Shown: piece by piece, positions 10 through 18,979 of the stretch | Position numbering within the stretch: the first letter of the stretch is position 1 | How the letters are laid out: every line of letters starts with the position of its first letter | Source of the DNA: a virus | Reading direction: 5' to 3' (one strand) | IMG/VR virus record: IMGVR_UViG_3300045999_005356 | Coordinates: 1-20,732 of that record | DNA length: 20,732 bases | The notes under the pieces: model-generated | Database searches by the model: none | What the model saw: the letters and a program-made list of their open reading frames with translations, nothing else | Told to the model about the DNA's origin: nothing | Program-made: the position numbers and the translations under genes

Positions 10-38
10 ATTATATAGCAAAAAGAAAGGGGTGTCAA
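10..38 (-). promoter_or_regulatory. Consensus sigma70 promoter nested in the porin terminator
   Basis: On the minus strand TTGACA (33-38) is followed after exactly 17 bp by TATAAT (10-15), a perfect match to the sigma70 consensus. The -35 hexamer lies in the loop and 3' arm of the porin terminator, and the terminator T-tract forms most of the spacer. Transcription would start near base 1-4, so it would serve a gene left of the window that cannot be seen. Confidence 0.75.
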
Positions 39-46
39 GCACCCCT
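19..46 (-). terminator. Rho-independent terminator of the porin gene
   Basis: A perfect 7-bp stem, AGGGGTG (46-40 on the minus strand) with CACCCCT (34-28) and a 5-nt loop, is followed by TTCTTTTT. It lies 33 bp beyond the porin stop codon. The stem is G/C-rich with a U-rich tail, as expected of an intrinsic terminator. Confidence 0.85.
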
Positions 47-79
47 CAGTAGTAATTTATACCTAATTATGTTAGGAAA

Positions 80-1579
80 TCAGAACCTAAAGGTTGTCTG
101 GACTACCCCACCATAGTTGTCTGAAGCATTCTTCAGACCTTGATTGTTGGAAACATAGAACACAGCAGGAGTGATGCTGATGTTATCGCTAACTTTGTAA
201 CGATAGAATGCTTCCCACATGATAGCCTTCTGATCATCTTTCAGAGAGGCAGCATTACCAGGAGCACCAATGGCAAACCCAGCAGCATTACCCTTAGCAA
301 ACACATCTGCCCACTGAAGACCAGCAAACCAAGTTTGTGAATCTGTAGCACCAGTAGGAGTCTGACGATTGTTAGACAGACTTACAGTGTTCCAACCATA
401 AGCACCACTCACAGATGGAATGATACCAGACTTCTTGGGTTGCCAATAAGCATTCAGAGCATATCCATTGGAGGTTTGGTTAGTACCAAGAGCACCAGAA
501 CCACCACCCAGAGCATTGAAGGTGCGAACACGAGTGCCCTCAGTGCCATATCTGTAACCAAAGGCAACTCCATATTGAGGAGCACGATATCCAATTTGAG
601 CAAGAGTGTTCAGAGAACCATCTTCATCAAACTGACCTTTAGTAGAATCTGAACCATTCTGAGCAACATAATTTACTCCAGCAACAAATCCACCCTTACC
701 CTTCTTAGTAGGTTGTGCCCACTGAGCACCAAAACCAGAACCAGTTGCCTTATTATAAACTCCAGGAGCACCAGCAACTTGGAAGAAGTCAAGAATGTCT
801 GACTTGTAAGCAGAAGGAACCCATGCCATCTCTGTGTTACGAACAATAGCACCAGCAGTCAGAGTCATGCCTTTGGTAAGACCAGGGAAACTGTAGTAGA
901 GACGATCAAGATTGACTTGGTTTGCATAGGTTTCTGCCTTGTCCAGTTTGAACAAAGAGGAAGAAGAACCAAAGGGTTGACTGGAGAAGTTACCAGAACG
1001 CAGACGAGTCTTGAGCAGATCCTTACCAGTGAAGGAGGTATCAAAACTCAAGCGAACATCATAGTTGAATGCAGTGTTACCAACATTAGTGCTGTTAGCA
1101 AGACGAGCACCTTCTACACCACCAAGAACAAAAGTTGCTTCACCCTTGAGTTTGGTTGTAGTGGAGAATTGAGTTGCCTGAAGAGTTCCAACTTGCTTTT
1201 CCAGTTTGGCAACACGACCACGAATAACTTGAAGTTCATTGGAGAACTCATTAGCAAGGCGCTGGAGTTCATCAGTAACTTCAGTCACACGATCAAGACA
1301 AGCATTAAGAAGTGCTGCTGCTTCAAAACGAGTCATAGACTTACCACCAAGATAAGTGCCATTCTCATAACCAGCAACACAACCATAACGCTCAACAAGA
1401 TTGTTGAGTGCCTGATATGCCCAATCAGTAGGCTTTACATCAGACAGTTGTGTGATACTTGTAACCTGCTCAGAAGAATATTGATTGACTGCTGCAATGT
1501 TAAGGTCTGCTGCATTTGCAACAGCAGGAGCAACCATACCAAAAGCAACAGGTGCAAGCATCAGTTGTTTAAATTTCAT
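80..1579 (-). CDS. Cyanobacterial SLH/OprB-type outer-membrane porin carried by phage
   Basis: This 499-aa protein has the full layout of a cyanobacterial Som-type porin. Residues 1-23 form a Sec signal peptide ending in ANA. An SLH domain spans about 46-98 (SDVKPTDWAYQAL at its start, MTRFEAAALLNACLDR at its end), and in this family it anchors to peptidoglycan-linked polymer. A heptad-rich coiled coil covers about 99-135, followed by an OprB-like beta-barrel to residue 499. The last residue is Phe (TTFRF), the usual BAM insertion signal. Expected role: passive channel in the outer membrane. It is its own transcription unit, with a promoter at 1672-1700 and terminator at 19-46. GC is near 50% in hand-counted blocks, against about 30% in the adjacent glycan genes, which suggests host origin or selection for high expression. 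No Shine-Dalgarno is visible. Family call is strong; substrate and role in infection are unknown. Confidence 0.93.
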   Translation of the reverse strand: MKFKQLMLAPVAFGMVAPAVANAADLNIAAVNQYSSEQVTSITQLSDVKPTDWAYQALNNLVERYGCVAGYENGTYLGGKSMTRFEAAALLNACLDRVTEVTDELQRLANEFSNELQVIRGRVAKLEKQVGTLQATQFSTTTKLKGEATFVLGGVEGARLANSTNVGNTAFNYDVRLSFDTSFTGKDLLKTRLRSGNFSSQPFGSSSSLFKLDKAETYANQVNLDRLYYSFPGLTKGMTLTAGAIVRNTEMAWVPSAYKSDILDFFQVAGAPGVYNKATGSGFGAQWAQPTKKGKGGFVAGVNYVAQNGSDSTKGQFDEDGSLNTLAQIGYRAPQYGVAFGYRYGTEGTRVRTFNALGGGSGALGTNQTSNGYALNAYWQPKKSGIIPSVSGAYGWNTVSLSNNRQTPTGATDSQTWFAGLQWADVFAKGNAAGFAIGAPGNAASLKDDQKAIMWEAFYRYKVSDNISITPAVFYVSNNQGLKNASDNYGGVVQTTFRF

Positions 1580-11931: not shown

Positions 11932-12847
11932 TTTTGTACCACTCATATGTTTCATAGATTCCTTGTCTAAGTCCAATCTTAGGACTCCACCCAAGTGATT
12001 TAATTTTATCTACATTTAATACTTTTCTAGGAGTTCCATTAGGTTTGGATTCATCCCACATTGTTATACCACCATAACCAACAATAATAGAAATAAGTCT
12101 TGTTAGTTCTTTGATAGATACATCTTCTCCAGTCCCAATATTAATAATTTCAGAATTATTATATGAAATCATACATCTAAAACATGCTTCTGCCAAATCA
12201 TCTACATGAAGAAATTCTCTCATTGGAGAACCATCTCCCCAACATTCAACAAAATGTGAATTAGATTCTTTTGCTTCATGAAACTTTCTAATTAATGCAG
12301 GAAGAACATGAGAACTATTCAGATCAAAATTATCATTAGGACCATAAAGATTGGTAGGCATTAGAGAGATGGCATTAAATCCATACTGCTCTCTGTATGA
12401 TTGGCACATTTTAATGCCAGCAATCTTTGCAATTGCATAAGCATCATTTGTTGGTTCTAGAGGACCAGTCATCAACTGATCTTCTGTGATCGGTTGAGTT
12501 GCAAACTTAGGATAGATGCAAGAAGAACCAAGGAATAAAAGTTTCTTCACACCAAAGTTATAAGATTGCTGAATGATGTTAGTTTGAATTTGCAAATTCT
12601 CAGTTAGAAAATCTGCCTTATAGTTGCTATTTGCCATAATGCCACCAACTTTGGCAGCAGAAATAAAAACATATTCAGGTTCTTCTGAGCAGAAGTATCT
12701 TTCTGTCTCATCTTGATTTGTAAAGTCTACATCATCTCTAGTACCTTTGATGATATTAGTATACCCTTTACCCTCAAGGTTCCTCACAATTGCTGATCCA
12801 ACCATTCCATTGGCACCAGCAACTAATACTCTAGATTCACTGTCCAT
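11909..12847 (-). CDS. fcl: GDP-L-fucose synthase
   Basis: The ATG at 12847 (312 aa) is chosen because the longer frame needs a TTG start. It is an extended [18 protein letters not shown] (8-21) binds NADPH, GSSCIYP (107-113) holds the catalytic Ser, and YAIAK (137-141) holds Tyr137 and Lys141. [19 protein letters not shown] and [10 protein letters not shown] are hallmarks of GDP-fucose synthase. It should convert GDP-4-keto-6-deoxymannose to GDP-L-fucose by epimerisation and reduction in the cytoplasm. The substrate comes from gmd immediately upstream, which it overlaps by 11 bp. All catalytic residues are intact and the length is normal. Confidence 0.93.
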
Positions 12848-13838
12848 AAATGCACATATCCTCAATTAATTGATCAAATGAAATCTTAGGTTCCCAACCT
12901 AATTCAACTTTTGCCTTAGTGGCATCACCTAACAAAGTCTCTACTTCAGCAGGTCTAAAATATTTAGGATCAATTCTAACAACTACAATTCCAGTATTTT
13001 TATCTACTGCCATTTCATTAAGTCCTTCTCCTTGCCATTCAAGATTAAATCCAAAATATGGTGCTGCTTTTTCTACAAATTGTTTAACTGAGTATTGTTT
13101 TCCAGTAGCAATAACATAATCTTCAGGTTTATCTTGTTGAAGCATTAACCACATTGCTTCAACATAATCTTTTGCATGTCCCCAATCTCTTTTGGCATAT
13201 AGATTTCCTAGTGCTAAAGAATTTTGAAGACCACAAGAGATTTTAGATAATGCCCTGACAATTTTTCTAGTTACAAAGGTCTCCCCTCTTCTAGGGGACT
13301 CATGATTAAAAAGAATACCAGTGCAAGCATACATGTCATATGCTTCTCTATAGTTTTTAGTAATCCAATATGAATATAATTTTGCTACACCATAAGGAGA
13401 TCTTGGGTAGAAGGGTGTTGTTTCTTTCTGAGGAATCTCTTGAACAAGACCATACAGTTCACTAGTAGATGCTTGGTAGATTCTAACTTTCTCCTCCATA
13501 CCAAGAAGTCTGACTGCCTCTAGAATCCTCAGTGTACCAACACCATCAACATCAGCAGTGTATTCAGGCATCTCAAAGGATACCTTTACATGACTTTGTG
13601 CAGCAAGGTTATAGATTTCATCTGGTTGAACTTGTTGAATAACTCTAACTAAGTTCGTAGAATCAGTAAGGTCGCCATAATGCAGATTAATTCTATCATA
13701 TACATGATCAATACGATGCGTATTGATAAGGGAAGACCTTCTAATAATACCATGAACTTTGTAACCTTTTTCAAGAAGAAGTTCTGTGAGATAGGATCCA
13801 TCCTGTCCTGTAATACCAGTGATAAGTGCTGTCTTCAT
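12837..13838 (-). CDS. gmd: GDP-mannose 4,6-dehydratase
   Basis: The 333-aa protein is a clear GDP-mannose 4,6-dehydratase. [11 protein letters not shown] (7-17) binds [14 protein letters not shown] (79-88) lies in the active-site region, QASTSELYG (122-130) supplies Thr125 and Glu127, and SPYGVAK (147-153) has Tyr149 and Lys153. [17 protein letters not shown] and [20 protein letters not shown] are family signatures. It is shorter than E. coli Gmd (about 373 aa), in line with shorter bacterial and phage forms. It turns host GDP-mannose into GDP-4-keto-6-deoxymannose, first committed step to GDP-fucose. It is the first gene of the glycan operon, with promoter and terminator directly upstream. 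Confidence 0.95.
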
Positions 13839-13857: not shown

Positions 13858-13886
13858 ATTATACAAAAAAAGAGGGGTCTTGTAAA
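13858..13886 (-). promoter_or_regulatory. Sigma70 promoter of the glycan operon, nested in a terminator
   Basis: TTTACA (13881-13886), 17 bp, TATAAT (13858-13863) on the minus strand. The -35 box begins at the top of the 5' arm of the terminator and runs through its loop; the 3' arm and T-tract are the spacer. Start predicted near 13851, giving a leader of about 13 nt before gmd. Confidence 0.72.
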
Positions 13887-13893
13887 CCCCTCT
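13864..13893 (-). terminator. Rho-independent terminator before gmd
   Basis: Stem AGAGGGGT (13893-13886) with ACCCCTCT (13878-13871), 7-nt loop, then seven T on the minus strand. It would end transcripts from the antitoxin/tRNA unit, or act as an attenuator ahead of gmd, whose ATG is 26 bp further on. Confidence 0.85.
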
Positions 13894-14097
13894 TAATTCC
13901 GTATTTGCAGGCTCGCCACCAATTCTTTTACTGGAAATTGGAAACCAGGCGGGAGTAAGATCCCATCCGCACCACTTGCTCTTGAAGGAAGCAAGAAACC
14001 TAAGGGGGTCATATGACTCCACCAGGATTTTTAAAGTCTCTCCATGACTGAGGGGGTTCATCCCGACCAGGGTGCTTTTAAAGTCATCCCAAGACTA
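13894..14097 (-). other. GC-rich structured stretch, possible RNA element
   Basis: These 204 bp have no convincing gene. GC is about 47% (85 of 180 bases in 13921-14100), against about 30% in most glycan genes. Visible structure: nested pairing CGCC/GGCG (13914-13917, 13948-13951) enclosing CCAATT/AATTGG (13919-13924, 13936-13941); a 6-bp hairpin 13975-13980 with 13990-13995; the palindrome GTCATATGAC (14008-14017). It is followed at once by a strong terminator. An open frame of 69 codons (14061-13852) crosses it but runs into the terminator and looks spurious. Candidates are a small RNA, a leader RNA of the gmd operon, or decayed tRNA-type sequence. Confidence 0.5.
13999..14088. repeat. Two imperfect direct repeats, 47-bp spacing
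   Basis: On the plus strand both copies have the order C(C/T)(T/G)AGGGGGT..CA, then CCAGG, then TTTTAAAGTC. The two TTTTAAAGTC blocks lie at 14029-14038 and 14076-14085, 47 bp apart. Because 47 is not a multiple of three, the duplication is not of coding type. Confidence 0.6.
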
Positions 14098-14176: not shown

Positions 14177-14353
14177 TCAACAAGCTTCATCATGTTCAAA
14201 GTAACCATCATAATAATCAGAATAATCATCATATGGCATGAGAACACAATCTCTATTGTCTGTGGTTCGTATGAGGAAGTGTTCCCCATTTTCAACTCTT
14301 TCCATTACTTGTTCAAAGTTTTCCTCTAAGTCTTCCAAAGTAATCTCAGTCAT
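14177..14353 (-). CDS. Orphan Phd/YefM-type antitoxin-like protein
   Basis: From the ATG at 14353 it has 58 aa. This start has AGGAG just upstream; the longer frame begins with GTG upstream of the predicted transcription start. The sequence MTEITLEDLEENFEQVMERV, then ENGEHFLIRTTDNRDCVLMPYDDY, follows the Phd/YefM fold: an N-terminal strand and helix, a turn, then a strand of the RxGxxVAVLV type ending in a D-Y pair. The tail is short and very acidic, so the usual toxin-wrapping C-terminal segment is reduced. Antitoxins of this family bind DNA and neutralise Doc- or RelE/YoeB-type toxins. No toxin gene lies next to it. It has its own perfect promoter (14375-14403) and is followed by a tRNA. 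It may counter host toxins or act only as a regulator. Confidence 0.72.
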   Translation of the reverse strand: MTEITLEDLEENFEQVMERVENGEHFLIRTTDNRDCVLMPYDDYSDYYDGYFEHDEAC

Positions 14354-14374
14354 TTCTCCTGGTTGTGTATGATC

Positions 14375-14403
14375 ATTATACCTATGATGGGAACCATTGT
14401 CAA
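14375..14403 (-). promoter_or_regulatory. Perfect sigma70 promoter of the antitoxin/tRNA unit
   Basis: TTGACA (14398-14403), 17 bp, TATAAT (14375-14380) on the minus strand, with start near 14368 and a leader of about 15 nt. Short symmetries lie over it: ATGG..CCAT in the spacer and ATGATCAT just after the -10, possible sites for antitoxin autoregulation. The rest of the gap up to 14532 shows only a weak inverted repeat (14437-14453). Confidence 0.82.
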
Positions 14404-14532
14404 CAGATAACACAGTGTTGCAAGGGTTATGTTATTATTTAATATACTTGATATTAGGTGTGTCATTGTGGATATGCGTGTGTGAGTCCCCAATAGACAA
14501 ATAAACTTATAGATGCAAACATCAATGCTGCT

Positions 14533-16836: not shown

Positions 16837-17018
16837 TATTGGTCCAAATAATCTAAAGACAAGACTTGGATATCCTCCTTTTGGACTACCCAATCTCTAA
16901 TCTCATCATAGAGTGCTTGTGCGTCTTTTGTTCTGCCTTGGGCACACAGTTCATGCATCCTATCAATAATGCTATCAACTCTATTCTGACAGAGCATCTG
17001 CATTTGAGTTGGGTTCAT
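16833..17018 (-). CDS. Helical protein of 61 aa, unknown
   Basis: The ATG at 17018 (61 aa) has AGGA nine bases upstream; the longer open frame lacks such support. The start overlaps the nuclease gene by 38 bp. The product MNPTQMQMLCQNRVDSIIDR, with MHELCAQGRTKDAQALYDEIRDW next, is almost all helix and resembles a short helix-turn-helix hairpin of the TPR type, but one repeat only. No membrane segment. A perfect sigma70 promoter inside the nuclease gene (17056-17084) would drive it on its own. No family recognised. Confidence 0.7.
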   Translation of the reverse strand: MNPTQMQMLCQNRVDSIIDRMHELCAQGRTKDAQALYDEIRDWVVQKEDIQVLSLDYLDQY

Positions 17019-17433
17019 AATAATCTTTCCTAAAGTACCTAGACAGGATGTTGCTATTATAGTACTTGGGGATACCACTGTCAAGGGATTCAGTCAAAAC
17101 ATTATTCAGGAACAGTTGTCTTGTTTCTTCAAAGTTGCACTTTCCTTTTGTTTTATGGAGGCTAAGTATAGTTCTGTCCACTGACTCTTTTCCCCAAAGT
17201 TCAATGTCAACTTTGAGTTCTGGACAGGATCCATAATACTTTTTCCAATCAGACTCTGATTTAACTTTTCTAGATTTTCCCTTCGGTGTGCGGAAAGACC
17301 AGAAATATTTTCTGCCAATGTAACTACGACCAGTTTCCCTACAGTAAAGATGATAAACAAAACCAAAATGATCTTGAATATGATCTGAATCAAAAATCTC
17401 GCCATCATAGGTCCAAGGATTTTCGTAACTCAT
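16981..17433 (-). CDS. GIY-YIG-like phage endonuclease
   Basis: The 150-aa protein shows the two short strands of the GIY-YIG fold: GFVYHLYCRETGR (24-36), then SYIGRKYF (37-44), where Tyr and Arg41 are the expected catalytic residues. A basic stretch (TPKGKSRKVK) and SDWKKYYGSC follow, and an acidic helix with FEETRQLFLNNVL supplies a possible metal-binding Glu and Asn. Cyanomyovirus genomes carry a similar putative endonuclease near nrdB. It may be a free-standing homing or recombination-type nuclease, or a host-DNA degradation enzyme; no separate DNA-binding domain is visible. It has two putative promoters (17486-17514 and late 17460-17467), and another one inside its 3' end for the next gene. 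Confidence 0.72.
   Translation of the reverse strand: MSYENPWTYDGEIFDSDHIQDHFGFVYHLYCRETGRSYIGRKYFWSFRTPKGKSRKVKSESDWKKYYGSCPELKVDIELWGKESVDRTILSLHKTKGKCNFEETRQLFLNNVLTESLDSGIPKYYNSNILSRYFRKDYYEPNSNADALSE
17056..17084 (-). promoter_or_regulatory. Perfect sigma70 promoter inside the nuclease gene
   Basis: TTGACA (17079-17084), 17 bp, TATAAT (17056-17061) on the minus strand, wholly inside the nuclease coding region. Start near 17049 would leave a leader of about 30 nt with AGGA before the 61-aa gene. Confidence 0.72.
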
Positions 17434-18945: not shown

Positions 18946-18953
18946 TATTTATA
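18946..18953 (-). promoter_or_regulatory. T4-type late promoter (TATAAATA)
   Basis: TATAAATA on the minus strand is identical to the T4 late -10 sequence. It begins directly in the T-tract of the nrdB terminator and lies 22 bp before the ATG at 18924. Confidence 0.82.
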
Positions 18954-18979
18954 AAAAAAAGAGGGGCAAATGCCCCTCT
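18953..18979 (-). terminator. Rho-independent terminator of nrdA-nrdB
   Basis: Stem AGAGGGGC/GCCCCTCT with loop ATTT (18979-18960 on the minus strand), then eight T, two bases after the nrdB stop codon (18982-18984). The tail merges with the late promoter. Confidence 0.9.

Follow-up and report, generated by a model that had tools for sequence, protein, structure and literature searches.

A predicted porin terminator that overlaps a consensus sigma70 promoter belongs to a class of fused gene borders in cyanophages

In the 20,732-bp stretch of DNA analysed here, an entire viral contig (hereafter the window) whose closest named relatives are the cyanomyoviruses S-SRM01 and DSL-LC03, an earlier note had proposed that the terminator of a porin gene and the next promoter are the same DNA. 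This locus raises the question of whether such an overlap is a coincidence or a recurrent kind of gene border, and how it might work. All three sites described in that note were located, each on the minus strand, as are the relevant predicted genes (Table 1).

The first site (47-10, minus strand; GAGGGGTGCTTGACACCCCTTTCTTTTTGCTATATAAT) bore out the proposed overlap. Its hairpin, with the core GGGGTG-CTTGA-CACCCC, is GC-rich and is followed directly by a T-tract, as in intrinsic terminators, and the porin stop codon lies 33 nt upstream. The -35 box TTGACA falls within this hairpin, with four bases (TTGA) in the loop and CA in the 3' arm, and the promoter matches the sigma70 consensus at 12/12 positions with a 17-bp spacer. 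The predicted RNA fold has a z-score of -3.6 versus shuffles, and the hairpins of sites 1, 2 and 3 each fold far better than shuffled sequence. For the second site, the claim of the same geometry at 13858-13893 held in part: a terminator hairpin with an embedded promoter is present (13894-13858), but its geometry is similar rather than identical, as the -35, TTTACA, runs from the end of the 5' arm into the loop, and the promoter match is 11/12. At the third site, where the nrdB terminator was said to run straight into a late promoter (18946-18979), the hairpin, a run of seven T and the motif TATAAATA were all found, the last T of the run being the first T of the motif.

Promoter-like sites in the window number 87 versus 78 ± 9 in shuffles, a total near chance, although they include four perfect 12/12 sites that do stand out, all of them on the coding strand. 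A perfect sigma70 promoter match (14403-14375) also lies near the called start of an open reading frame for a Phd-like antitoxin (phrog_375; 14177-14413). Enrichment of the composite element is not demonstrable from the window by itself and needed a comparison of nine genomes.

Table 1. Coordinates in the window of the three composite sites and adjoining features.
Feature	Position	Strand	Remarks
-10 box TATAAT	10..15	-	sequence
17-bp spacer, formed by terminator 3' arm and T-tract	16..32	-	sequence
Predicted terminator hairpin GAGGGGTG-CTTGA-CACCCCTT, 8 pairs	27..47	-	-12.6 kcal/mol; homologous stems covary
-35 box TTGACA	33..38	-	TTGA in loop, CA in 3' arm
GTAN8TAC palindrome (NtcA-type box)	49..62	.	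ends 10 nt upstream of -35
Porin gene (OprB family, SLH domain), the unit ending at the element	80..1579	-	PF04966 E=2e-14, PF00395 E=7e-8
GDP-mannose 4,6-dehydratase gene (gmd)	12837..13838	-	in DSL-LC03 also preceded by a composite, with a different stem
Second composite, promoter TTTACA-17-TATAAT	13858..13886	-	11/12; about 20 nt before the GDP-mannose dehydratase gene
Second composite, predicted terminator hairpin with embedded TTTACA	13870..13894	-	-15.2 kcal/mol
Late-promoter motif TATAAATA adjoining T-tract	18946..18953	-	sequence
Predicted terminator hairpin after nrdB	18960..18979	-	-15.4 kcal/mol

Terminators and promoters were called independently in nine cyanophage genomes, with T4 and RB49 for contrast. 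A promoter matching at least 10/12 positions was embedded in 17 of the 495 cyanophage terminators, compared with 4.8 (maximum 12) when the downstream flanks were re-paired and 1.6 when the consensus was permuted (0/187 permutations reached 17). At a threshold of at least 11/12, eight were found versus 0.81 and 0.15 in the respective controls. The terminators of T4 plus RB49 yielded no embedded promoters (0/144), and Syn9 and S-CRM01 had zero composites at 10/12 or better. When promoters were binned by the distance between the end of the stem and the start of the -35, the main peak was the -20 to -11 bin, with 17 promoters versus 0-4 in most other bins. A second, smaller excess, in the bin at -60, comprises 10 strong promoters that precede the hairpin, lying 51-60 bp ahead of the end of a terminator-like stem. 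This would place a hairpin right at the transcript start, and positions 1700-1640 of the window resemble this arrangement.

These controls bear on the possibility that the overlap arises by chance in short, AT-rich intergenic spaces in which terminators and promoters are both common. Re-paired flanks still yield about 5 composites per 495 terminators, which implies that -35-like loops and -10-like downstream sequences are each fairly common near these terminators. Against chance stand the 3.5-fold to 10-fold excess, the single main distance and, as set out below, stem covariation and exact recurrence. The re-pairing and permuted-consensus controls rule out chance overlap for the class, leaving it with a negligible probability as a general account, although individual weak sites may still be chance.

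Terminators joined to the late promoter TATAAATA form a parallel class. The motif starts 2-8 nt past the terminator stem in 17/495 cases in the nine cyanophage genomes, nine of them in S-SRM01, while 55 permuted 8-mers gave a mean of 0.58 and a maximum of 5. Site 3 and these 17 similar sites share their motif with T4-type late promoters (TATAAATA/NATAAATA); unlike in the T4-type arrangement, the cyanophage motif directly adjoins the terminator T-tract, a configuration found in 2/144 cases in T4 plus RB49. A scan with a rigid late-class pattern returned 11 contigs only, the pattern being too narrow to inform. The enrichment check that the earlier note had proposed was thereby run in the nine cyanophage genomes for both forms, the -35 within a hairpin and the terminator followed by TATAAATA, and both exceed their controls.

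If the same bases served in RNA folding and in promoter recognition, both demands should be visible in natural variants. In a scan that specified the promoter only (CTTGACN15CTATATAAT), a T-tract was present at 18/18 sites with a hairpin versus 9/92 without one (Fisher 2e-14). The stem occurs as GGGGTG/CACCCC, GAGGGG/CCCCTC, GGGGAG/CTCCCC, GGGGC/GCCCC and GGAGGTCT/AGACCTCC, with TTGAC constant throughout. Among 12 aligned variants, a set picked from sequences already seen to pair, six of the eight pairs change on both sides, in 17 cells versus 4.7 when shuffled, and the covariation score is 0.57 versus 0.21 (0/500 shuffles). In a set that was not selected for pairing, a stem formed in 51/75 cases versus 23 (maximum 31) after re-pairing of the arms. 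Compensatory stem changes around a fixed TTGAC indicate selection on both the predicted terminator and the predicted promoter function, which would fix the loop at CTTGAC, as the -35, and let the stem drift as long as its changes compensate each other.

At least 119 viral contigs contain the exact 19-mer GGGGTGCTTGACACCCCTT; as there is partial homology among these loci, their number describes a pattern and not 119 independent events. Nearly all lead into a T-tract and a TATAAT at 17 bp, locus L052 being an exception. When the stem and T-tract were fixed and any 5-nt loop was allowed, a correctly spaced -10 matching at least 5/6 positions accompanied all 103 loci whose loops give at least 5/6 of TTGACA, versus 0/16 with other loops. 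A host origin of the element was rejected: in 257 Gb of bacterial and archaeal genomes the 17-mer occurs at 24 places, each on a genome contig, which is about the number expected by chance, and none is cyanobacterial by title.

The genes downstream of the exact hairpin are dominated by hli, encoding the high-light-inducible protein and identified by phrog_178 (87 loci), followed by a T4-GC524-like small gene (16), two more recurring families (6 and 4) and two single loci. Among named isolates, the element precedes annotated hli in S-RIM32, S-SKS1, S-H9-2, S-SSM4, S-PM2 and Sf-CH3; in P-HM1 it follows gp23. The window ends short of the next gene. Locus L051 matches the window at all 69 nt compared and then leads into hli, from which we infer that the gene after the window's first site is also hli. 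The candidate psbA was rejected as the downstream gene, as translations and PHROGs give hli. When hli genes were chosen by protein without reference to the motif, the composite was present in 32 of 49 distinct upstream regions. The remaining 17 have no hairpin and mostly keep the promoter, so an hli promoter can do without the hairpin.

Upstream genes vary across about a dozen families, including porin, phosphate-binding-protein-like and glycosyltransferase genes. Particular borders nevertheless recur with differing stems: gmd is preceded by the element in the window and DSL-LC03, an AAA ATPase gene is preceded by it in S-SRM01 and DSL-LC03, and the porin is followed by it in the window and S-SRM01. 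The compact terminator-promoter boundary element proposed in the earlier note is thus strongly supported by its enrichment and recurrence, the covariation of its stem and its presence at shared gene borders in different phages; the link to hli, the NtcA-type box and the precedent of PeSLs (promoter-early stem-loops), the latter two discussed below, are absent from that note and are added here. Two other genes are recorded in their own right. The gene at 16981-17433 of the window matches phrog_447 ('NAD synthetase') and, more weakly, homing-endonuclease families, and its relatives in S-PRM1 and S-SCSM2R have composite elements upstream. Upstream of position 138591, S-SCSM2R carries an ndhD-like gene with the membrane domain of NADH:quinone oxidoreductases and Mrp antiporters (PF00361), in a cyanophage.

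PeSLs of T4-like phages reportedly (Arbiol et al. 2010, 10.1093/gbe/evq006; Comeau et al. 2014, 10.1093/gbe/evu129) combine a strong sigma70-like early promoter with a stem-loop terminator at gene borders. They are also reported to be present as many near-identical recombining copies per genome, with packaged mini-circles arising from exchange between copies. The cyanophage element likewise has a strong sigma70-like early promoter (12/12, 17-bp spacer), and its hairpin and T-tract, predicted to be stable and covarying, make it a candidate terminator. In RB49, by contrast, the stem-loop fills the spacer between -35 and -10 (TTGACAGGGGATCGGTGATCCCCTATAAT) without a T-tract, its centre lying at +10 to +29 from the -35 start, whereas the cyanophage hairpin encloses the -35 and places the T-tract in the spacer. 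About 10 of 44 strong RB49 promoters have a stem-loop filling the 17-bp spacer in this way. The cyanophage form is thus a geometric variant of the PeSL, set apart by the RB49 scan, and may have been described before; a cassette that combines terminator and early promoter is already known from PeSLs, which are cited in PMC4503421 and PMC3950731. Like the morons of lambdoid phages, the cyanophage element equips a small gene (hli in this case) with a promoter of its own beside a terminator, at a place that follows unrelated genes; unlike in morons, terminator and promoter share bases and the terminator serves the upstream gene.

The PeSL parallel suggests another reading, in which the element is mainly shared homology for shuffling small gene modules and the regulatory fusion is a by-product. 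One exact hairpin is common to many gene neighbourhoods across phages, with at least four recurring gene families following it and about a dozen preceding it, and the hli cassette follows porin, phosphate-binding-protein-like, glycosyltransferase and other genes, as shuffling would predict. However, each genome carries only 0-5 copies with different stems, offering little homology for within-genome exchange, and the compensatory stem changes point to an RNA function. We regard this reading as unlikely.

The reading that we consider very probable is a fused unit border, in which the hairpin and T-tract of the porin's intrinsic terminator double as the -35 and spacer of a strong early promoter, recognised by host sigma70, that serves the putative hli gene. 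Composite anatomy, enrichment, covariation and recurrence at the same borders are read from the sequence, and from them we infer termination and initiation in the cell; the literature searched contained no mapped transcript ends for these elements. As RNA made from upstream, the element would fold and polymerase would halt at the T-tract; as double-stranded DNA, it would act as a consensus promoter, with hli transcription starting some 7 nt past TATAAT. The reason for the fusion would be economy of space in a packed genome. Host sigma70 is thought to serve the early genes of cyanomyoviruses, which lack the T4 genes for polymerase modification (PMC2984593), and a consensus promoter fits that use.

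Many hli copies add an NtcA-type box to this border, upstream of the -35 and at either of two distances from it. Of 31 distinct composite hli promoters, 22 have GTAN8TAC upstream, versus 0.8 in shuffles, and when spacer lengths of 4 to 13 were compared only 8 stood out. Nearly all of these boxes are separated from the -35 by 9-11 or 30-34 nt. Across 142 distinct hli promoters the box is present in 70, in nearly all of which the gap to the -35 is 8-13 nt or 27-34 nt (17 and 7 distinct sequences, respectively), two preferred distances that differ by about two helical turns. A late promoter was also considered for GTATAAAT upstream of the hairpin and rejected in favour of an NtcA-type box, as most variants are without TATAAAT yet keep GTA-N8-TAC; some GTATAAAT boxes could be late-promoter remnants rather than NtcA sites. 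Canonical class II NtcA boxes take the place of the -35, at about -41.5. The cyanophage element has the same GTAN8TAC box as NtcA-dependent cyanobacterial promoters, with the 8-nt spacing standing out, but unlike them keeps a full -35, with the candidate box near -52 or -74. Between 1 and 16 NtcA sites per cyanophage genome were reported by Sullivan et al. 2010 (PMC3037559). If NtcA binds, the candidate box would couple hli to the host nitrogen/2-oxoglutarate signal.

Two further readings concern what the overlap would do to polymerase. One is a terminate-and-restart hand-off, in which polymerase terminated in the T-tract stays and re-initiates with sigma on the same promoter, making hli output depend on upstream flow. 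The fixed geometry puts the termination point inside the promoter, and after intrinsic termination the E. coli RNA polymerase mostly remains bound to DNA and can reinitiate nearby, in 37-55% of cases in vitro, which makes a hand-off physically plausible (PMC6978380, PMC6978322). That plausibility comes from the E. coli rather than a cyanobacterial polymerase, however, and restart in those experiments was by sliding, which needs no overlap (PMC6978380, PMC6978322). Moreover, 17/49 hli promoters are without a hairpin, and the overlap could equally cause occlusion. A hand-off is possible, with occlusion as likely, and as an account of the element we consider it quite improbable. A more specific version, in which NtcA beside the hairpin recruits or retains the just-terminated polymerase and restarts it on the embedded promoter, strikes us as very improbable; if true, it would tie phage hli expression to both upstream flow and host nitrogen state.

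The other is mutual exclusion, a switch rather than a relay, in which transcription arriving from the upstream unit would occlude the promoter, and a polymerase or NtcA bound at the promoter would in turn block that transcription. The geometry forces the footprints of terminating and initiating polymerase to overlap, and the NtcA-type box often adjoins the hairpin, 9-11 nt from the -35, but efficient termination would itself limit occlusion, and we hold this reading to be doubtful.

In the fused border, RNA folding and sigma70 recognition independently constrain the same stretch of about 40 bp, and natural variants separate the two, the stem varying while TTGAC stays fixed. The element offers a ready test bed for a question from single-molecule work, namely whether terminated polymerase is re-used at the next promoter, and gives cyanophage annotation a searchable border signal. 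The design recurs in many related viruses, often before the light-stress gene hli, and would link this near-universal cyanophage photosynthesis gene to a candidate NtcA input.
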